A stretch of DNA of 56,264 nt from Anaerolineae bacterium (GTDB lineage Bacteria; Chloroflexota; Anaerolineae; UBA4142; SHND01): assembly GCA_021463195.1 (NCBI GenBank), contig JAJTXZ010000024.1, forward strand, positions 1 to 56,264. The letters run 5' to 3'. Of the stretch, positions 45,858-56,264 are shown in pieces. A program made the translations under genes and the position numbers. Every line of letters begins with the position of its first letter. Positions within the stretch are counted from its first letter, which is position 1. The notes beneath the pieces were generated by a model that searched no databases, was not told where the DNA came from, and was given only the letters and a program-made list of their open reading frames with translations.

Positions 45858-45882
45858 TTGGCTGTCAGTTCCGCTTTTTCTT

Positions 45883-45911
45883 TTGCCAATTCCCCCTCGC
45901 TATGCTAATAT
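45883..45911 (+). promoter_or_regulatory. lon: Predicted lon promoter TTGCCA-17-TAATAT
   Basis: TTGCCA at 45883-45888 and TAATAT at 45906-45911. The expected start near 45918 gives a leader of about 74 nt. Confidence 0.55.
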
Positions 45912-45927
45912 CCTAAATCAATACACC

Positions 45928-45969
45928 ATGGACAATGTACAATGGACAGATTTTTTATTCATTGTCCAT
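45928..45969. promoter_or_regulatory. Inverted repeat ATGGACAATG / CATTGTCCAT in the lon leader
   Basis: A perfect 10-bp inverted repeat (45928-45937 and 45960-45969) with an extra direct copy ATGGACA at 45942-45948 between the arms. As RNA it forms a hairpin upstream of the lon start; as DNA it is a candidate operator. It is not the CIRCE heat-shock sequence. Confidence 0.5.
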
Positions 45970-45991
45970 TCGCTATTGTTCATTCAACTCC

Positions 45992-48412
45992 ATGTCTCGA
46001 CGCCAAGCGCAAACCGCGCCACCCATTCCTGTAATTGAAATCGAAAATGAAAACACGCGCGTATATCCGCTCGTTCCCGCGCGCGATACGGTCGTTTTTC
46101 CGCGCCTGATTTCGCCCATCACCGCCGGACGCGAACGCAGCGTACGCGCCATCGAAGAAGCGATGCTGCGCGACCAAAAAGTCGTCGTGTTCGCGCAACG
46201 CGACCCCGAATTGCAAGAACCCGGAATGGACGATTTGCACACCATCGGCACCGTCCTTTCCATCGGACGGATGCTGCGAATGCCCGACGGCACGACGAGC
46301 GTCTTGGGGCAAGGCGAAACGCGTGCGCGCTTGCTCGAAATTGTCCAGACCGACCCATTCGTCAAAGTGCGCGTAGAGGAAATCATCGAAGCCAGAGACA
46401 CTTCGGTTGAAATCCAAGCGCTCTGCCGCATGGCGCTCGCGCAGTTTGAAAAAATCGTGCGACTCAATTCCAATCTGCCCGAAGAGGTGTACATCGCCGC
46501 GATGAACACCGAAGGCGCGGGCGCGCTCGCCGATTTAATCGCGTCGTCGCTCAATCTCGAACTCGGCAAACGGCAGGAAATTTTAGAGACGCTGAATGGG
46601 GTCGAGCGGCTCAATCAGATTTCACGCTTGTTGGCGAACGAGCTCCAAGTCCTCGAACTGCAAAGTCAAATCCATAATCAAGTGCAGGAAGAGGTGGACA
46701 AAAATCAGCGCGAATATTATTTGCGCGAACAGATGCGCGTGATTCAACACGAGCTCGGCGAAATGGACGCGCAGACGCGCGAAATTCACGAGCTGCGCGA
46801 AAAAATCGCCGCCGCCGAAATGCCCGACGAAGCGCGCGCGCGCGCCGAACACGAGCTCGAACGCATTCAACAAACACCCTTCGGCTCGCCCGAACTTGGC
46901 ATCATCCGCACTTATCTCGATTGGCTGATTCAACTGCCATGGAAAAACGCGTCGCCGGACAATCTCGATATTCCCGCCGCCGCGAAATTATTGGACGAGC
47001 AACATTACGGCTTGAAACGCGCCAAAGAAAGAATTTTAGAATACATCGCCGTCCGCAAACTCGCAGGCAATAAAATGGCGTCGCCTGTGCTGTGCTTCGT
47101 CGGACCGCCCGGCACGGGCAAAACTTCGATGGGGCGCAGCATCGCGCAAGCGTTGGGGCGCAATTTTGTGCGCGTATCGCTCGGCGGCATTCGCGACGAA
47201 GCGGAAATTCGCGGCCACCGCCGCACCTACATCGGCGCGCTGCCGGGACGCATCATTCAGACGATGAAACGCGCCAAATCCATCAATCCCGTTTTCATGC
47301 TCGACGAGATTGACAAGGTTGGCGCGGATTTTCGCGGCGACCCGAGCGCGGCATTGTTAGAAGTGTTGGACCCCGAACAAAACAATGCGTTCAGCGACCA
47401 TTATCTCGAAGTCGCGTACAATTTGAGCCAAGTCATTTTTGTCACGACGGCGAACCTCCTCGACCCGATTCCGCCCGCGCTGCTTGACCGTATGGAAGTC
47501 ATCGAATTTCCGGGGTATATCGAAGAAGAAAAACTCGCCATCGCGAAACAATTCATTATTCCGCGCCAACTCGAACAACATGGCCTCGTCGGCAAACCAA
47601 AATTTTCGGACGAATCCATTCGCGGACTGATTCGCGATTACTCGTACGAAGCGGGGGTCCGCAATCTCGAACGCGAAATCGCGCAAGTCTGCCGTAAAAT
47701 CGCGCGTCAGGTCGCCGAAGACAAACCCGCGCCCGCGAGCGTCTCCAAAGAAACGCTCAACAAATATCTGGGGCCCGCGAAATTCATGTATGGCGTGAAA
47801 GAAGAGCAAGACCAAATCGGCGTCGCCACGGGCCTTGCCGTCACTGGCGCGGGCGGCGACACGATGGCAATCGAAGTGACGCTGATGCCGGGCAAAGGCG
47901 GATTGATGCTCACCGGACAACTCGGCGAGGTGATGCAAGAGTCCGCGCAAGCCGCGCTCTCGTACGCGCGCACCAACGCGAAACAACTCGGTCTGCGCGC
48001 CGATTTTGAAAAACTCGATATTCACATTCACGTCCCCGAAGGCGCGATTCCCAAAGACGGGCCTTCGGCGGGCATCACGATCGCGACGGCGTTGATTAGC
48101 GCCTTGTCGCAGCGCGCTGTTTACAAAGATGTCGGTTTTACGGGCGAGATTACTTTGCGCGGGCGCGTGCTGCCCATCGGCGGCGTGCGCGAGAAAATTC
48201 TCGCCGCGCACCGCGCGGGTTTAAAAACACTCATCCTGCCCAAAAAGAACAAAAAAGATTTGGTGGATTTGCCGCGCAAAGTCCAGCGCAATTTGAATCT
48301 TGTCCTCGTCGAAAACATGGATGAAGTTTTACCGGTGGCGTTGACCAAAAACAATGCCGCCCGCAAAACTACGCATCGCCATAAATCGCCCCCGCGCGCT
48401 GCCGCGCGTTGA
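45992..48412 (+). CDS. lon: ATP-dependent protease Lon
   Basis: 806 aa. N-terminal LON substrate domain ([22 protein letters not shown]), coiled-coil linker ([20 protein letters not shown]), AAA+ module with Walker [10 protein letters not shown] near residue 370 and Walker [19 protein letters not shown], and the protease domain with catalytic S692 ([10 protein letters not shown]) and K735 ([10 protein letters not shown]). Degrades misfolded and regulatory proteins. The start at 45992 follows a good promoter and leader; the frame is open for 19 more codons upstream into the leader. Basic C-terminal tail [15 protein letters not shown]. Confidence 0.95.
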
Positions 48413-48432
48413 CCTCATTTTGGAGTTTTGTT

Positions 48433-48765
48433 TTGAACAATTATCCGAATCAACCGCCGCAGCTGCCGCCCGGCAATTACAACCCATTCAATCCCTATGG
48501 CGGTTATGACCCGAGCGCGGATTACGTGCCGTGGCTGCCCGGCAAACAGAGTCCGCGTTTTATTCCCATCGCCATCATCGTCGCGCTGCTGTTGGTATGC
48601 AGCTGCTGCGCGTTCTTTGCCGGCACGCTTTTTGGCATCGAACTGCCGGGGATACTCGGCGTGGACGCGGCGTCACCAGCTGCGCCGTCCGATGAACTGC
48701 CACCCGAAGAAGAACCCACGCCCGAAACCTTTCATTATCGCGTCAACTATCATTTCAATTCCTGA
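48433..48765 (+). CDS. Proline-rich small membrane protein
   Basis: 110 aa from a TTG start with GGAG 7 nt upstream. N-terminal ~40 residues are rich in Asn, Pro and Gly (NNYPNQPPQLPPGNYNPFNP), followed by one membrane segment (IPIAIIVALLLVCSCCAFFA) and an acidic Pro-rich exterior tail. Function unknown. It follows lon by 20 bp and is probably in its operon. Confidence 0.6.
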   Translation: MNNYPNQPPQLPPGNYNPFNPYGGYDPSADYVPWLPGKQSPRFIPIAIIVALLLVCSCCAFFAGTLFGIELPGILGVDAASPAAPSDELPPEEEPTPETFHYRVNYHFNS

Positions 48766-48804
48766 TTTCAAAACCCGCTCTCGTTCGAGAACGGGTTTTG
48801 AAAT
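48765..48804. terminator. Long perfect hairpin between two genes
   Basis: ATTTCAAAACCCG (48765-48777) pairs with CGGGTTTTGAAAT (48792-48804), with further pairing TCTCG / CGAGA towards a small loop. No T-run follows. The next gene's ATG is only 7 bases after the stem. Likely an attenuator, terminator or mRNA-processing hairpin. Confidence 0.6.
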
Positions 48805-48811
48805 TCCGCCG

Positions 48812-50212
48812 ATGCAAGCTACCGACCTTTATCAAAGTTACGCGCAAGGCGCGAGCGAAACACTCGCCTTTGAACTCGAAAGCGCGGCGGCGCTCAAACT
48901 CGCCGAAACTTTTTCCGCGTTAGCAAACACACACGGCGGCGGCGTGCTGCTCGGCATTGACGCCGCCAGCAATCTCATCAAAGGTGTCCGCGACCTCGAT
49001 GCCGCGCGCGACAAAGCGCTCGCCGCGGGTTTGCGCTGCGATCCGCCGCTCGTTCTGCCGCGTCCGACCACCGTGATGCTCGAAGGCAAGCCGTTATTGT
49101 ACGTCACCATTCCATCCGGGTTGCCGCACGCGTACGCGCTGCGCGGCAAATACATGGCGCGCGAAGGCAAAAAAAATCGCGCGCTCGGGCCGCGTCAATT
49201 GCGCGATTTATTGCGTCAGCGCGGCGAAGGCAATTTTGAAGCGACCGTTTTACAAGGCGCGACGTTAGATGACCTCGATCGCGAACGCGTGGAGCAATAC
49301 GCGAAATTATTTTTAAGCGACGTCAGCGCGCGCCATCGCTGGAATGAAGAGACGCTCGATTTATTGTTTCGGCGCGGTTGTCTCGTTAAAGAATCAAGCA
49401 CGTATCGTCCCACCGTCGCGGGTTTGTTATTGTTCGGACGCGAACCGCAACGCTTGCTGCCGAGCGCGGAAATTTTGTTGGCGCGCTATGTTGGCGCGGA
49501 AATGTCCGACACGTTCATTCGCGAAACCGCGCGCGGCGCTTTGCCCGAACAAATTCGCGCGGCAGAAGCGTTTCTCACAACTAACATGCGCAAAGGCGCG
49601 CGCATTGCCGATTTCAAGCGCGAGGAAAAACCGGAATATCCATTGTCCGCCGTGCGCGAAGTAATGGTCAACGCAGTCGCGCATCGGGACTATCAAATTC
49701 GCGGCGAAGAAATTCGCGTATTGATGTTCAATGATCGCATCGAAGTGTATTCGCCCGGACGCTTGCCCGGTCATATCACGGTGGAAAATATCGTCGAGGA
49801 ACGCTTTGCGCGCAACGAGGTGATTGTCCAAGTCTTGACGGACTTGGGTTTTGTGGAACGCCTTGGATACGGCATTGATCGCATTTTGCGCCAAATGAAT
49901 GAGGCGGGTCTGCCGCAGCCAAAATTTCAGGAAACCACTAATGGATTTCGCGTCACGCTGCGCGGCGCGGGCGATAATTTTGTCTCGGGCGAATTCGACC
50001 ACGCCAAATATCGCAATCTGCCGTTGAACGAACGTCAAAGCGCCGCGCTCAACATCTTGCGCAAGGCGGGGCGCGTCGGCAATCGCGACTTGAAAGAATT
50101 GTATCCCGATGTGAGCGAAGAAACGATTCGCCGCGATTTAGCGGACCTTGTGGACGCGGGTCTTGTCATCAAGATGGGCGACCGCAGAGGGACGTACTAT
50201 ATTTTGAAATAA
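48812..50212 (+). CDS. AlbA_2 / HATPase_c_4 regulator with C-terminal HTH (RecG-like putative transcriptional regulator)
   Basis: 466 aa. N-terminal AlbA_2 (Schlafen-like) domain ~15-130 with ETLAFELESAAALKLAETFS and ALANTHGGGVLLGID. Middle HATPase_c_4 region with PLSAVREVMVNAVAHRDYQI, MFNDRIEVYSPGRLPG and VEERFARNEVIVQVLTDLG-FVERLGYGIDRI. C-terminal winged HTH (ALNILRKAGRVGNRDLKELY, then EETIRRDLADLVDAGLVIKMG). This domain set is annotated as ATP-dependent DNA helicase RecG-related or DNA-binding protein; role in regulation is inferred. The ATG at 48812 is preferred over longer frames. Confidence 0.82.
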   Translation: MQATDLYQSYAQGASETLAFELESAAALKLAETFSALANTHGGGVLLGIDAASNLIKGVRDLDAARDKALAAGLRCDPPLVLPRPTTVMLEGKPLLYVTIPSGLPHAYALRGKYMAREGKKNRALGPRQLRDLLRQRGEGNFEATVLQGATLDDLDRERVEQYAKLFLSDVSARHRWNEETLDLLFRRGCLVKESSTYRPTVAGLLLFGREPQRLLPSAEILLARYVGAEMSDTFIRETARGALPEQIRAAEAFLTTNMRKGARIADFKREEKPEYPLSAVREVMVNAVAHRDYQIRGEEIRVLMFNDRIEVYSPGRLPGHITVENIVEERFARNEVIVQVLTDLGFVERLGYGIDRILRQMNEAGLPQPKFQETTNGFRVTLRGAGDNFVSGEFDHAKYRNLPLNERQSAALNILRKAGRVGNRDLKELYPDVSEETIRRDLADLVDAGLVIKMGDRRGTYYILK

Positions 50213-50814
50213 GCATTGACGCGCGCGTATTCCGCCATCACGAGCGGCAATAAAATTTCGCGCGCGGGCGTTTCCAGGTCGGTCATCACGCCTTCGCATT
50301 TTTGCAGCGCCCATAACGCGTCGGGCGCGTTATTTTGAAAACAATACAGTCGCGCTAACGCGAGCCACACCGCCGCCGCGCGGTCAGGAAAAGTGAACGC
50401 GAGTTGTTCCGCGCACTCGGTCAAATTCGCGTATGCGCTGTCCCAAGCTTGTTTGCCCACACGCACCGCGCCGCAATAATATTGCGCCACCGCGCCCGCC
50501 AACGTCACATTCACGCCGCCGCGATACAATGCGCCTAATTCCCGCACGCGCAGCGCGGCAGCGCACCATTCTTCCGCCTGCGTCCACTCGCGTTTGCCCG
50601 CGCACATTGTCGCCCGCGTCAACATTTCGCACACGCCGCGTCCGAGTTCGGGATTCACCAATACGCGCGGCAGCGGAGTCGTCAAGCCATTCGCGCCGCG
50701 CACGCGATACGGCACCAGTTCCAGCGAAAACGCGGAACGCTGCGCGACCTTGAACAAAAACACGCGGCCCAGCGCCAAGAGGTCGAGCGCCAACGCGTAT
50801 TCACTGCCCCACAT
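50197..50814 (-). CDS. TPR-like helical protein of unknown function
   Basis: 205 aa, mostly helical with TPR-like spacing (EYALALDLLALGRVFLF, ATMCAGKREWTQAEEWCAAA, AVWLALARLYCFQNNAPDAL). No enzyme motif. Its start shares one base with the SPFH gene stop (TAATG), so the two are coupled. Its 3' end overlaps the convergent AlbA_2 gene by 16 bp. Confidence 0.6.
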   Translation of the reverse strand: MWGSEYALALDLLALGRVFLFKVAQRSAFSLELVPYRVRGANGLTTPLPRVLVNPELGRGVCEMLTRATMCAGKREWTQAEEWCAAALRVRELGALYRGGVNVTLAGAVAQYYCGAVRVGKQAWDSAYANLTECAEQLAFTFPDRAAAVWLALARLYCFQNNAPDALWALQKCEGVMTDLETPAREILLPLVMAEYARVNAYFKI

Positions 50815-52268
50815 TATTCTTCTGTCTCTTCCGCATCGGCGCGTCCAAACATGTCGAGAATGGAACGCGGGTCGCGGTCGTAACGACGTTCGTACACCAG
50901 CAGACCCAACGCGCGCATCAATTCGCGCATCGTGCCTTCGTCCAAACGATCGCCAAACGCCTGCCGCACTAATTCCATCCGCCGCGCGAATTCCACCGCG
51001 CTCGCCGCGCGCGCTTTCATGCGCGTTTCCAAACCGAGCGCTTCAGCTTCGGCTTTGAGTCGCTCCACCTCTTTGTCGGTCTCGGCTTTGATAATGCGCG
51101 TCTTGTGTTCCAACTGCGCCAGTTGATGCTGTTTGTTGGCTTGCTCCAATTCAGCGCGCGATTGCCGCTCCAGCTCGGCTTCTTTTTCCAACGCCACCAT
51201 CCATTGGTCGTACATGCGTTTCGTTTTTTCCGCAAAATCGGGCGGCGGCGCGAGATGGTCAATCATCATCATTCGCACCGCGACGCCGGAATCGGCGAGG
51301 CGGTCGCGTGTTTCATTGATTAAACGCGCGCGAATTTCTTCTATCGCCGGTTTCGACGCTTGCTGGGAATAGAACCGACGCAGCGTTTCGGTCAAATCCA
51401 AATGCTGCAACTGATCGGGCGTCACGAAAAAATCCGAGAGCGCGAATTGACGCATAATTTCGCGCAATTTTTGCATCAGCGCGCGCGCTGCTTTTTCGCG
51501 CCAATCGGGCGAGGGAATTAACGCGCGGCGCACATTTTCCAATTTCACCAAATGCGCTTGGCCGTCCTTGAGCGCCGAACCATCTTGAATAATCCAAAAC
51601 GAAATCACGCCTTTGAGTTGAACCTTCATCCCATCGGCGGTCCAAAACGAATCGTCTATGGGCAAAGATTGCGGTTTCAAATCCACCGCGCCGACGTATT
51701 GCTGATTCCATTCGTACAGATGCAAGCCAAATTGGCGCAGGACATATCCACCCGGCTGCCAAATCAGCGCCGCGCTGGAACGGTCAATATCCAGATACGC
51801 GGGGCCACGCCCTGTTGTGCGTTGGTACGAAAGATCGAGCTGGTCGCGGCGGCGCAATAGAGACATGTCCGTCCCTTCGGCGATTTGGCCTTGCCGTATC
51901 GGAATCGTCGGCAAATATTCTTGGCTCAAGTAATCTTCCAACAGCGCTTGCGCCGCCGCGGGATCTTGAACGCTATACGGCGCCAACAGCAATATTGCGC
52001 TGCGCCCAAGCAACGCGCGCAGAACGTAACGCGTCGCCAAAACGCCCGCGCCCGCCATGCCAAACGCAAACGCTAACGCGAGCCAGCGCATCACGCCGAT
52101 AAAAAATAATCCCGCCACCGCCGCCGCGCCGACCGCGAGCAAAAAAAGCGCGCTGACCAGCATGACGCCAGAATCGGGAGCAAGTGAAGAGGGTTTGGAT
52201 TTGGGTTGTCTCGAGAGAGCCGGGGGCCGCTTGGCAAGCAACGTAAATTTAGCCAAAAGTTTTTCCAT
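50814..52268 (-). CDS. SPFH/Band 7 domain membrane protein
   Basis: 484 aa. Two membrane segments near the N-terminus (VMLVSALFLLAVGAAAVAGL and WLALAFAFGMAGAGVLATRYV), an SPFH/band-7-like domain (~160-330, ending AVRMMMIDHLAPPPDF), then a long charged coiled coil (KEAELERQSRAELEQANKQH … KAEAEALGLETRM). Flotillin/stomatin-like scaffold organising membrane domains or a protease. Coupled with the TPR-like gene. The predicted promoter is at 52385-52413. ATG at 52268 has AAGGAT upstream. Confidence 0.75.
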   Translation of the reverse strand: MEKLLAKFTLLAKRPPALSRQPKSKPSSLAPDSGVMLVSALFLLAVGAAAVAGLFFIGVMRWLALAFAFGMAGAGVLATRYVLRALLGRSAILLLAPYSVQDPAAAQALLEDYLSQEYLPTIPIRQGQIAEGTDMSLLRRRDQLDLSYQRTTGRGPAYLDIDRSSAALIWQPGGYVLRQFGLHLYEWNQQYVGAVDLKPQSLPIDDSFWTADGMKVQLKGVISFWIIQDGSALKDGQAHLVKLENVRRALIPSPDWREKAARALMQKLREIMRQFALSDFFVTPDQLQHLDLTETLRRFYSQQASKPAIEEIRARLINETRDRLADSGVAVRMMMIDHLAPPPDFAEKTKRMYDQWMVALEKEAELERQSRAELEQANKQHQLAQLEHKTRIIKAETDKEVERLKAEAEALGLETRMKARAASAVEFARRMELVRQAFGDRLDEGTMRELMRALGLLVYERRYDRDPRSILDMFGRADAEETEE

Positions 52269-52384
52269 ACCACATCCTTGTGGAAGCGTGCGGCACGCCC
52301 ATCCAGCGCGTGTCACCGCGTTATCGCTTGAGAAAATATTCGCGCGAGAACATTATTGGTGGAACAACCGGCTGCAACGCGGAC

Positions 52385-52413
52385 AGGATAACATAATTAA
52401 AAATTCTTTACAA
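52385..52413 (-). promoter_or_regulatory. Predicted promoter of the SPFH operon (TTGTAA-17-TATCCT)
   Basis: On the minus strand TTGTAA (52413-52408) and TATCCT (52390-52385) are 17 bp apart, giving a leader of about 110 nt before the SPFH ATG. Confidence 0.45.
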
Positions 52414-52454
52414 ACAAAGAGCGCGCAACGCGCAGCAAGCATAACATTTTTGGT

Positions 52455-52484
52455 TATCCCACACTATCCCACATTTATCCCACA
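52455..52484. promoter_or_regulatory. Three helically phased direct repeats TATCCCACA
   Basis: TATCCCACA starts at 52455, 52465 and 52476, i.e. spaced 10 and 11 bp, one turn of the helix each. Resembles a cooperative protein-binding array (compare DnaA-box-like TTATCCACA) between divergent transcription units. Confidence 0.55.
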
Positions 52485-52572
52485 CACCGCATAGCAAGAT
52501 TCGCACGCTTGTTCTACGCCTGCTTTTTCGTTTTTTTTGCGGCGTGCGCGTTCACGATACAGCGTCGCGCTA

Positions 52573-52600
52573 TTGCAAGCATAACCGTTTTGCATATGAT
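52573..52600 (+). promoter_or_regulatory. Predicted promoter TTGCAA-16-TATGAT of the HTH-only gene
   Basis: TTGCAA at 52573-52578 and TATGAT at 52595-52600; the expected start near 52607 is about 8 bases before the candidate TTG start at 52615. Confidence 0.4.
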
Positions 52601-52614
52601 CACGCCAGCAAAAA

Positions 52615-52887
52615 TTGTTCGCTCGAAATACTCGCTTGGAGCTTCAGGTTGAAATAGTTGCTTCGCCTCCCCCACACACACATTTCTTCATCCATACAAA
52701 ATTGACGCCGCGCGAAATGGAAATCTTGAAACTGGTCGCGCAAAACCGGAGCGACAAGGAAATCGCGCAGACCCTGCAAATAAGCGTCAACACAATGCGC
52801 AATCACATGCAAAACATCCTGCGAAAATTGAAAGTGTGTAATCGAGAGGCGGCGGTGTGGCTAGCGAATCATTTGAGGTGGATTTGA
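52615..52887 (+). CDS. LuxR-type HTH protein (HTH domain only)
   Basis: 90 aa. The C-terminal ~60 residues are a LuxR/GerE HTH (KLTPREMEILKLVAQNRSDK, then EIAQTLQISVNTMRNHMQNI and LRKLKVCNREAAVWLANH). No receiver or sensor domain is present; the first ~28 residues are unlike any domain and the TTG start is uncertain. The HTH half is nearly identical at DNA level to the gene at 53880-54488, so one arose by duplication, probably with loss of the N-terminal domain here. Next to a matching palindromic operator. GerE-type HTH-only proteins are known, so it may still be functional. Confidence 0.7.
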   Translation: MFARNTRLELQVEIVASPPPHTHFFIHTKLTPREMEILKLVAQNRSDKEIAQTLQISVNTMRNHMQNILRKLKVCNREAAVWLANHLRWI

Positions 52888-52908
52888 GAGCAAAGGCGTT
52901 TAGAAAAA

Positions 52909-52953
52909 ATAGTGCATGCACTATTGTATTACGCCTGTTTAAATCCGTATAAT
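52909..52953 (+). promoter_or_regulatory. Operator-promoter A: palindrome ATAGTGCATGCACTAT and TATAAT
   Basis: Perfect 16-bp palindrome ATAGTGCATGCACTAT at 52909-52924, centre 31.5 bp before the first base of TATAAT (52948-52953). Predicted position of the centre is about -43.5. The overlapping -35 (TTGTAT, 52924-52929) is weak. Same arrangement as site B at 54510. Consistent with a LuxR-type activator site of class II. Confidence 0.75.
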
Positions 52954-52981
52954 AGAAATAAATTCGAAAGGAGATTGTTCG

Positions 52982-53086
52982 ATGCGCACCCTCACACAGC
53001 ATAATTTGAACGGACGCACAAGCCAACAATACGGCGGTGGTTCATGTGCTGGGGATGGAGAAAGCGCGACCCTTCTCCCACAGTAA
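52982..53086 (+). CDS. 34-aa peptide under operator-promoter A
   Basis: Reads MRTLTQHNLNGRTSQQYGGG then SCAGDGESATLLPQ and stop. AAGGAG lies 9 nt before the ATG, a strong site. No signal peptide or membrane segment; Gly-rich middle with one Cys. First reading frame of the transcript. Could be a signalling peptide, a leader, or a fragment of a degraded gene. Confidence 0.5.
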   Translation: MRTLTQHNLNGRTSQQYGGGSCAGDGESATLLPQ

Positions 53087-53110
53087 GAATACGCTAAAAA
53101 GGGGTGTTCC

Positions 53111-53758
53111 ATGAAGCAACATCGGCTGAAAGTTACAACGATTTTTTGCGTGCTCCTTCTGGCAGCTGTATTGGGAGGTTGACTAATCATATCCAATGCG
53201 CACAGCGCCCCACGTCGAAATGACTGGCCTAGCTTCAAGATGACATACAAGGACTGGCAGTTATATAATGGGCAAGAACGTGCCCCTCGTCACAGAGTAG
53301 AACAGCTTGTGTATCAAGACCAACTGCATTGGAGTTCGGAGGTCTTGGAAGAGACTGCCGCACCGGATTATGTGGGGAGCTACATGCAAGTCAACGACGA
53401 CATTATCAAAGGCGCAAATAAAAAGCTTCGCGCCTTTGATGAACGAAAAATAGATCTAAGCGAAGGATTTTATGCCCCGGCTGAATGGCTCGTCCCCATC
53501 CGCATCAGCAAATACAAACAGGTCCCGGGGGCGGAGATTCGTCCTGCCGACAAGCCGGGTTTAATGGATCTCACCTTTACTGAGCAAGCGCCTTGCGACC
53601 CCGATACATGGCCGTGCGAAAAAGAGGTCTATGATGTTACGACGCGCATTCGCTATTGGGCAGACTCGGAATTGCCGATGGGCATGACCGTGACAAGCAA
53701 TGGAGAACTTGTACGAGAGATCACCGTGACCGCTTTCGAGTGGTTATCTTTAAAATAA
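53111..53758 (+). pseudogene. Secreted protein with an in-frame TGA at the signal-peptide end
   Basis: An ATG at 53111 begins MKQHRLKVTTIFCVLLLAAV-LGG, a lipoprotein-like signal sequence, followed by TGA (53180-53182) and then 191 further in-frame codons to the stop after 53755. The protein after the stop (LIISNAHSAPRRNDW…, then DWQLYNGQERAPRHRVEQLV … RYWADSELPMGMTVTSNGEL) looks well maintained. The TGA sits where a lipobox Cys (TGC/TGT) would be expected (L-G-G-C). If no readthrough occurs, translation might restart at the ATG at 53240, giving 172 aa without a signal. Family not recognised. Confidence 0.6.
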
Positions 53759-53817
53759 TTAGCGCCACCAAAACGCCACTTTGCGGCAAAAGCGTTTCAT
53801 TCTGAACTGAATTGGAA

Positions 53818-53844
53818 GAACCTTTCTATCAAAAAGAAAGGTTC
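53818..53844 (+). terminator. Hairpin GAACCTTTCT / AGAAAGGTTC
   Basis: A perfect 10-bp stem (53818-53827 and 53835-53844) with a 7-base loop follows the secreted-protein gene; the downstream T-tract is weak (GCTTGATTTT). Possible terminator or processing signal before the pseudo-receiver regulator. Confidence 0.55.
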
Positions 53845-53879
53845 GCTTGATTTTCTGACGGGTATTTTTTGGAGGCATC

Positions 53880-54488
53880 ATGGCTGACATCGCAGTCACG
53901 CGCGTCTTGGTGATTGACTCGAGCTTTTTGTTTTATCAAGGTGTCTCCCAAGCCCTCCCTGCCAAGCGCTGGCATGTCGTCGGCTGGACACAAGATTTGG
54001 ACTGTGCCATGCAGCGCTGCACAACGGACGCGATAGACCTCGCCCTCATCGGACATGCTTTGTCTCCTCGTAACGCGCTCGCCATTTGTCGCGCGCTGCA
54101 TCAAGCATTTCCACAACTCAAAATTATCCTCCTTTGCGCTTTTGCTGCCAACCCGCTGTTGCAGCACGACGCGCTTTACGCAGGCGCAGACGTTTGCTTG
54201 CCGCCCTCGATCAATCACGACGAGTTTCTGACCGCGTGCGCTGATGTACTAAATGATAGATACGCGCGCAATGTTTGTCGGAAAAATGCAGCGCTGTCGC
54301 AGCTGACGGCGCGCGAAATCGAAATTCTGCAGCTCGCGACGGATGGCAAGCCGGACAAGGAAATCGCGCAGACCCTGCAAATAAGCGTCAACACAGTGCG
54401 CAATCACATGCAAAATATCTTGCGGAAACTAGAGGTAGATAACCGCGAGGATGCAGTCTGGCGAGCGAAACATCGCGGCTGGATTTGA
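53880..54488 (+). CDS. LuxR-family regulator with degenerate receiver domain
   Basis: 202 aa. Residues ~7-125 have the receiver fold (RVLVIDSSFLFYQGVSQALP, then IILLCAFA and AGADVCLPPS) but lack the phosphorylation site: the usual D in the second motif is replaced in DLALIGHALSP (G58/H59), and the conserved lysine is replaced by P108-P109. Residues ~140-200 are a LuxR HTH (QLTAREIEILQLATDGKPDK, then EIAQTLQISVNTVRNHMQNI). So it is probably phosphorylation-independent or senses a ligand. GGAGG lies 5 nt before the ATG. Its HTH is almost identical to that of the HTH-only gene, so both should bind the same operator type. Confidence 0.85.
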   Translation: MADIAVTRVLVIDSSFLFYQGVSQALPAKRWHVVGWTQDLDCAMQRCTTDAIDLALIGHALSPRNALAICRALHQAFPQLKIILLCAFAANPLLQHDALYAGADVCLPPSINHDEFLTACADVLNDRYARNVCRKNAALSQLTAREIEILQLATDGKPDKEIAQTLQISVNTVRNHMQNILRKLEVDNREDAVWRAKHRGWI

Positions 54489-54509
54489 AGGGATGCGAGT
54501 TTTGAAAAA

Positions 54510-54554
54510 ATAGCGCCTGCACTATGGATTTTTCCGTTGACAAACAAGTATAAT
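54510..54554 (+). promoter_or_regulatory. Operator-promoter B: ATAGCGCCTGCACTAT and TATAAT
   Basis: ATAGCGCCTGCACTAT at 54510-54525 differs from site A at two positions. Its centre is again exactly 31.5 bp before the first base of TATAAT (54549-54554). No proper -35 exists at 17 bp (GGATTT), and TTGACA at 54537-54542 is only 6 bp from the -10, so activation by the palindrome-binding protein is likely. Confidence 0.75.
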
Positions 54555-54585
54555 AATGAAAAACAAAATTTAGCGAGGAGACAAG

Positions 54586-55149
54586 ATGCGTTCCGCAACC
54601 CGATTCTTCAAGTAGCTACCGTTCATTGCAGGATTAGCTCTTGCGCTATGGATGGCTGAAACTGCTTTTGCTCACCTGTCAGACAGACGAAAATGGGCGA
54701 ATCCAACGGTGACTTTTTACATTGGTGGCGGGCCCGAGTCCGTGCCAGTGAATTGAAAACAGCAATATCGCGATTCAGCCCAAACGTGGACAAATGCGCC
54801 GGGATCCTTTGCACTCGTTGAAACCTCACCCACTTCTGCGCAGGGGAATTTTGGAGCGCGACATTTCAGTCAAGACCCGGCATTCCCCGACAGCTGGTAT
54901 GGAATTACACTGTTGACGGGTCAAGGCACGATAACCTCAGCATCGTCCTATCTGAATCTGGATTATTCGTGGAATACAGATGGCACACAATTTCCAGACG
55001 TTCGAACAGTAGCAACACATGAACTAGGACACTGGGTTTTCTTTATTGACAATTGTTCTCCACAAAAACTGGTTATGTGCGCCACAGGACAGATAAAATG
55101 GAAATTGACAAAACACGAAAAGAACGAGTTGCAACAACTCTATCCGTAA
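54586..55149 (+). pseudogene. Secreted zinc metalloprotease (matrixin-like) with two in-frame stops
   Basis: One frame of 187 codons reads MRSATRFFK, stop TAG (54613-54615), LPFIAGLALALWMAETAFAH (signal peptide with cleavage near AFA-H), …PTVTFYIGGGPESVPVN, stop TGA (54754-54756), KQQYRDSAQTW…, then the metzincin/gluzincin-like motif VATHELGHWVFFIDN. HELGH followed by W rather than the usual Gly-x2-His spacer leaves the third ligand unclear. No frameshift occurs in the whole frame. AGGAG lies upstream of the ATG and the gene sits directly behind operator B. Without suppression only a 9-aa peptide is made; a re-start at the ATG at 54652 (MAETAFAH) is possible. The frame downstream of the second stop is open from 54913. 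Confidence 0.65.
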
Positions 55150-55194
55150 ACTGTGCTTATGCATGCAACCACTCAAGACCAGAAGGAGCCATCC

Positions 55195-55830
55195 ATGTCT
55201 CTGCGAACTCTATCCCTGAACACGAAATTGCGAACGATTTTGCTTTTGGGTTGTGCCCTCATTCTTGGAACAATTCTTACTACTCTCTACACCAAAGAAT
55301 CAAGCAAGACTGGGATATCACCCGAAACAATGAACAATGTAGAAAGCGCGCAAAATCCTCTGGATGCGCAACAAGCCCATGGATATGTTTTGCCCCAAAC
55401 CCCTGCGCAACGCACTCTACAAGCCCATAGCATTATAGTGGGGACTATCGAGACTGTAAGCCAAGTTCAATGGAACACTCCGGACGGGCACGCGCCCAAA
55501 TCCATGCAAGAAGAGACGCGACAGGGCAAAATTCCCTATGCATTCCGTACTGTAACTCTATCAGTCGCACGATATCTCAAGAACCCGCAACCTGAATTTA
55601 CAATCACCATCCAACAGCTGGAAGGGTTAGCAGAAGGGATGGACGTCACTTCAGATTTGGTCCCGGGTCGCCGAGTTGTGTTATTCCTCAGCAAAAAACA
55701 ACAGACGGCGGTTAAATGGGGGTACTATACAATGTACATTATCGAGGGCGACACTGCAACAAGCAAATTTGACCGCCAAGCTCTTCCCGTCACCGAGCTG
55801 ATATCAAATATCGAACAGCATGCAAAATAG
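55195..55830 (+). CDS. Secreted or membrane-anchored protein of unknown function
   Basis: 211 aa. AAGGAG is 7 nt before the ATG at 55195. Residues ~10-30 (LRTILLLGCALILGTILTTL) form a signal anchor; the rest is a predicted extracellular beta-rich domain (IIVGTIETVSQVQW, RTVTLSVARYLKNPQPEF, DLVPGRRVVLFLSKK, YYTMYIIEGDTATSKF). Family not recognised; the fold recalls small beta domains next to secreted peptidases. It follows the protease frame by 45 bp and is probably co-transcribed from promoter B. Confidence 0.65.
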   Translation: MSLRTLSLNTKLRTILLLGCALILGTILTTLYTKESSKTGISPETMNNVESAQNPLDAQQAHGYVLPQTPAQRTLQAHSIIVGTIETVSQVQWNTPDGHAPKSMQEETRQGKIPYAFRTVTLSVARYLKNPQPEFTITIQQLEGLAEGMDVTSDLVPGRRVVLFLSKKQQTAVKWGYYTMYIIEGDTATSKFDRQALPVTELISNIEQHAK

Positions 55831-55859
55831 GCGCATGGCATTCTGAATCCGTCTATCAC

Positions 55860-55899
55860 GAGAAAAGCCATGTCTGACGCGACATGGCTTTTCTCTTTT
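55860..55899. terminator. Rho-independent terminator, possibly bidirectional
   Basis: GAGAAAAGCCATGTC (55860-55874) pairs perfectly with GACATGGCTTTTCTC (55881-55895), loop TGACGC, followed by TTTT. It lies between the convergent secreted-protein gene and the VIT/VWA-like gene. Confidence 0.85.
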
Positions 55900-55906
55900 G
55901 GCGGCT

Positions 55907-56264
55907 TTACGATGATAGCGCCGTAATCTCGTACGCCATCCCATTCACCACAAAAATCACTTGCGCGCCGACGGCGATATATTTGCTCCATTCGGGATGC
56001 TGTTTCAGCAGGTCAAAGTATTCTGCGCCGCCGAATGGAATTTTCGTCGTCGTCATTTTTTCGGGAACGAAAGTTGTGTCCGTCCACACGCCGTTGCGCA
56101 GGATGAACGCCTTGTCGCCCGCGTGTTTAATCTTGCCTTCACTCGACGATGGCGCGGCATCCGCTTCTTGCAGCGCTTTGTTCGCTTGACTGGCAGCCAC
56201 CGCGCCCGCGCCGGAGGTTGACGCCGCGACGGGCGGCGGCGCGTTTTGTTGCACAGAATCGCTC
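55907..56264 (-). CDS. C-terminal part of a VIT/VWA-type protein (cut by the window)
   Basis: The frame is open to the window edge, so only the last ~119 residues are seen. The end reads TTKIPFGGAEYFDLLKQHPE, WSKYIAVGAQVIFVVNGMAY and EITALSS, preceded by an Ala/Ser/Gln-rich linker and GDKAFILRNGVWTDTTFVPE. This matches the C-terminal tail common in bacterial VIT plus von Willebrand factor A proteins (PFGS..YF.LL..HPE.W..YLALG…Y). Role of such proteins is unknown; probably extracytoplasmic. Confidence 0.55.
   Translation of the reverse strand, partial: SDSVQQNAPPPVAASTSGAGAVAASQANKALQEADAAPSSSEGKIKHAGDKAFILRNGVWTDTTFVPEKMTTTKIPFGGAEYFDLLKQHPEWSKYIAVGAQVIFVVNGMAYEITALSS

Follow-up and report, generated by a model that had tools for sequence, protein, structure and literature searches.

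Two exported-protein genes of an Anaerolineae bacterium, interrupted by in-frame stop codons, are probably recent losses in a hypervariable LuxR-linked slot

In-frame stop codons in bacterial genes that retain dN/dS < 1 are widespread, and in constrained genes they are short-lived (Belinky et al. 2021, PMC7918605). These nonsense pseudogenes and short-lived stops are the closest described counterparts of the locus reported here, which likewise shows single-base stops, in selected frames, in one lineage. It differs from them in that the stops affect two cargo genes of a single locus and that neighbouring genes are deleted. The window, that is, the whole stretch of DNA that was analysed, comprises 56,264 nucleotides. 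The region of interest (52607-55920) is flanked by a Band-7-domain gene and a VWA-domain gene and holds the following features:

52703-52887, forward strand: remnant of a first LuxR gene (LuxR1), GerE DNA-binding domain only, receiver deleted (from DNA, Pfam and amino-acid comparison)
52910-52923, forward strand: operator 1, the perfect palindrome TAGTGCATGCACTA, 24 bp from the TATAAT at 52948-52953, upstream of the gene A remnant and gene B
52982-53086, forward strand: 34-codon open reading frame, remnant of the exported cargo gene A (its start codon and last codons), from a match to A of the congener G003
53111-53758, forward strand: gene B, exported or membrane-anchored protein with a predicted LolA/RseB-like fold, interrupted by TGA (from translation, ortholog and model)
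53880-54488, forward strand: second LuxR gene (LuxR2), intact, with a receiver lacking the phospho-acceptor Asp and a GerE domain (from Pfam and sequence)
54511-54524, forward strand: operator 2, TAGCGCCTGCACTA, 24 bp from the TATAAT at 54549-54554, upstream of gene M
54586-55149, forward strand: gene M, putative small secreted matrixin-like metalloprotease (HELGHWVFFID) with TAG and TGA inside (from translation, Pfam and homologs)
55153-55830, forward strand: intact gene for an exported protein of unknown family, with a probable ATG start at 55195; weakly similar proteins lie near M-like proteases

Translation places the TGA of gene B at codon 24 (53180-53182) and the two stops of gene M at codon 10 (TAG, 54613) and codon 57 (TGA, 54754). 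All three lesions are single-base, and no frameshift was found in either gene from start to final stop (approximately 400 codons), just as an earlier note on this DNA had claimed. Its figure of 190 open codons for each gene holds for B, with 191 open codons after the TGA, and does not hold for M, which has 188 codons in total, two interruptions and a longest open part of approximately 130 codons. The frame of B is not a chance opening because the congener G002 has an uninterrupted, full-length ortholog with 65% amino-acid identity, and that of M is not because it matches matrixin-type proteases.

The B locus of G002 is syntenic on both sides, with window positions 45876-52607 and 55920-56264 matching at 82-83% DNA identity. 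Relative to this intact ortholog the stop in B is premature. The G002 residue aligned to the TGA is a tryptophan within the hydrophobic N-terminal signal/anchor helix, so the comparison with relatives that the earlier note had proposed yields a sense codon at this site. The TGA had been described as occupying a lipobox position; the orthologs carry no lipobox Cys there, and B therefore has no lipobox. No other genome carrying the stop of B was found. More distant, intact homologs are present in G003 (C243) and in G005, the latter in the same syntenic slot. A class-wide sample of 396 genomes gave one further weak match only, and B is thus nearly confined to the genus. An internal restart in B was considered and rejected, as the in-frame ATG at 53240 has no clear ribosome-binding site and its product would miss the export signal.

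B matches no Pfam or NCBIfam family. A model of the G002 protein, built from a three-sequence alignment (pLDDT 79), shows eleven strands and a single long helix at the N-terminus. Among PDB structures, Foldseek ranks LolA and RseB as its best matches (E 4e-7 to 1e-5, TM approximately 0.5). The fold is thus predicted to be LolA/RseB-like, sharing the half-barrel and the membrane helix at the N-terminus, but the sequence identity is only approximately 10%.

The product of gene M appears to begin with a signal peptide and to continue into a small catalytic domain, which we class as metzincin-like by its motif and alignment only. Against the Pfam Matrixin family (PF00413) it scores E 9e-4 and 19.6 bits, below the curated cut-off of 24. 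M shares with matrixins the HExxH motif and an overall alignment to the catalytic domain, but it departs from HExxHxxGxxH in that the third His is replaced by Asp and the Gly after HExxH is lost, and it contains two stops. The best genome match of M has an E value of 9e-9, and the match to solved matrix metalloproteinases is weak. Its relatives across the class are longer and intact, and in several, as in M, the third ligand is apparently Asp. The stops of M are premature relative to these homologs, which are distant, with partial-length identities of 23-44%. The residues at the position of its TGA vary among them (Trp in L004, Leu, Phe and others). Any internal start before the TGA still terminates at codon 57, so a restart in M was dismissed. 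A hairpin after the TAG (z −2.2) was judged incidental because of the second stop. A scan of genome contigs for M turned up nothing beyond a chance hit to a repeat-like protein with no relation to it. Distant relatives of the 55153-55830 product are encoded close to matrixin-like proteases in L004, L006, L007 and L029 of the same class.

The surroundings of both genes show decay of a different kind. The LuxR1 remnant has 76% DNA identity to the helix-turn-helix part of LuxR2 and 70% amino-acid identity to LuxR2 residues 140-202; it has no N-terminal match, and Pfam recognizes GerE only. In the 34-codon frame, 10 of 17 residues (positions 6-22) are identical to the C-terminus of gene A of G003 (tblastn E 2.4e-4, 700 bases), and the frame is placed just before B, as gene A is in G005 and G003. 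These two deletions answer the argument that ordinary pseudogenes usually also gain indels, which had made the stops look odd: large deletions are present, in the neighbouring genes of the locus. The slot of G002 is damaged as well, with its LuxR cut to 26 residues and running straight into the operator. That of G003 (C238) holds a LuxR, an unrelated exported protein and possibly a truncated second one. In G004 the VWA gene lies only about 450 bp from the Band-7 gene, and neither a LuxR nor any known cargo was detected between them. Since the contents differ in G002, G003, G005 and G004, the Band-7/VWA interval reads as a slot whose species-specific cargo is gained and lost. Elsewhere in the window, the mechanically called 571-residue frame at 48497-50212 is an upstream extension of a 466-residue gene; the homolog of the upstream 110-residue gene (48433-48759) is intact and lies in a different frame.

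The regulators of the slot resemble NarL/LuxR-type response regulators in their receiver-like and GerE DNA-binding domains. They differ in one point. The place of the phospho-acceptor Asp in receiver domains is well established, and this residue is missing (DLALIGHALSP) from all three intact congeneric LuxR copies (53880-54488, L014:4667-5275 and L108:2064-2672). The LuxR2 receiver is therefore probably not phosphorylated.

Without mismatch, AATAGYGCMTGCACTAT occurs at two sites only in the 4.7-Mb genome, at 52908-52924 and 54509-54525, and in both cases exactly 24 bp lie between the end of the palindrome and a perfect TATAAT. The twin promoters proposed earlier thus look real. The reversed pattern yields a similar count at two mismatches, so weight can be given only to exact or near-exact matches. 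In the syntenic locus of G005, an identical palindrome stands at the same 24-bp spacing, with TAAAAT as the −10 element. The spacing is also unchanged in G003 and G002, where the palindrome has diverged and the −10 element is TAACCT and CACAAT, respectively. Together with the adjacent LuxR gene, the operator spacing suggests that LuxR would directly activate the promoter, bound at a site that overlaps the −35 region. The LuxR-cassette operator at its fixed 24-bp distance occurs in four congeners, in one syntenic slot; besides the two sites in the window, its copies are at L014:5297-5310, L108:2682-2695 and G002:C99:6401-6418. An operator-like match in G004 (C144) was set aside; the region around it has no LuxR or cargo homolog.

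With an intact congeneric B and gene remnants nearby, ordinary recent gene loss is the most likely explanation. We regard B and M as probably recently nonsense-inactivated, or still polymorphic, cargo genes in the hypervariable Band-7/VWA slot. Of the four options the earlier note had offered, very recent inactivation is the best supported, by the intact B ortholog and the decaying neighbourhood. The dN/dS of B against G002 is 0.12 with saturated dS, so the divergence took place mostly under constraint and the loss would be recent relative to the G002 split. Private amino-acid changes in the window copy and in G002 stand at 15:4 with G003 as outgroup (p 0.02) and at 7:8 with G005. The constrained divergence and the perfect-looking promoters suggest a recent loss, with polymorphism perhaps still present. 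Counted against recent loss are the same perfect-looking promoters and low dN/dS of B, the lack of any frameshift in approximately 400 codons, the intact catalytic motif of M, the flat relative-rate result with G005 as outgroup, and the absence of an M ortholog from the congeners. The nonsense-only pattern is not remarkable in itself. With nonsense changes as 5-7% of substitutions and an indel:substitution ratio of 0.03-0.15, the probability of three nonsense lesions and zero frameshifts is about 0.02-0.4; the ratio is an assumption, as a literature search gave nothing usable. TGG codons make up 26-45% of the expected nonsense hits.

The strongest competitor, still unlikely, is that the stops arose as an error of assembly or consensus calling, or that the assembler picked a minority allele from a mixed population in which most cells carry intact genes. 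The genome is a fragmented draft (4.72 Mb, 143 contigs), each lesion is a single base, and assembly error is known to leave pseudogenes with internal stops as its mark (PMC11017572). Against this, three stops fall within approximately 400 codons, compared with no internal stop in five adjacent syntenic genes compared with G002 (approximately 2,100 codons), which makes the sequencing error that the earlier note had listed less likely. The sole stop aligned in the lon comparison precedes the start codon of lon in the window. The deletions in LuxR1 and gene A, moreover, are real decay in the same place.

It is more doubtful that readthrough of UGA, regulated or basal through the near-cognate tRNA-Trp, holds B at a low level, with the stop acting as a "volume knob". 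UGA is the leakiest stop in E. coli and is misread mainly as Trp, at about one to a few per cent (PMC11126739), and Trp is the congener residue at the stop of B. The low dN/dS of B would also fit the widespread constrained genes with in-frame stops (PMC7918605). However, such stops were found to persist only briefly in the same study, and that of B is known in one genome only, with a sense codon in the ortholog, so that conservation of the stop across species with downstream constraint is absent. RNA folding 3′ of the TGAs is no better than in shuffled sequences (z −0.23 for B, +0.56 for M), no suppressor tRNA is among the tRNAs found in the genome, and M would demand readthrough of UAG and UGA together. 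The programmed readthrough suggested earlier is thus unsupported. A change of genetic code was rejected, as the genome encodes prfB (above the cut-off), its only tRNA-Trp has the anticodon CCA, and 8 of the 28 long open reading frames in the window end in TGA; a further 5 of the 28 end in TAG.

We consider it quite improbable that the stops form a selected, reversible off-switch, acting through readthrough of UGA and UAG or through stop-to-sense polymorphism within the population, with promoters and frames kept.

Little credit can be given to the idea, also raised earlier, that the 23-residue signal peptide left by truncation of B serves as a pheromone. With an apparently intact promoter and ribosome-binding site upstream, the peptide would be made. 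The intact protein has no lipobox, though: the Cys that follows the signal peptide in lipoprotein-derived pheromones is absent from B and its orthologs, the peptide segment is among the least conserved regions of B, and no pheromone receptor was identified.

Insertion of selenocysteine at the TGAs deserves almost no weight: the genome has tRNA-Sec(UCA) and SelB, but the homologs carry Trp (B) or Trp, Leu, Phe and others (M) and never Sec or Cys, the RNA downstream, where a SECIS would lie, folds no better than shuffled sequence, and M contains a UAG besides. The two components are encoded at G000:C56:113998-114090 and G000:C17:8393-10261, so the organism may have true selenoproteins at other loci.

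Recent loss by nonsense substitution, the reading we prefer, would fit the following course. In the relatives, the LuxR of the slot and its palindromic operator appear placed to activate the promoter of at least one exported protein, and this cargo would change between species, being quickly gained and lost. In the present genome, one LuxR and cargo A would have been lost through deletion, and B and M through nonsense substitutions. The TGA of B probably arose on a codon that is Trp in the congener, the commonest type of nonsense change. At present B would yield a 23-residue anchor peptide and M a 9-residue one, with traces of full-length B perhaps made by ordinary misreading of UGA. B and M would thus no longer function in this genome.

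As pseudogenes, B and M are ordinary, and the architecture of the slot is more interesting than the stops. We could not match the combination of a LuxR with an atypical receiver, an operator at a fixed distance and changing exported proteins to any described system. The locus also carries a caution: where close relatives and the surrounding genes point to decay, a frame broken by stop codons only is no evidence for recoding. For these bacteria, the LuxR-linked slots show the swapping and loss of surface or secreted functions.
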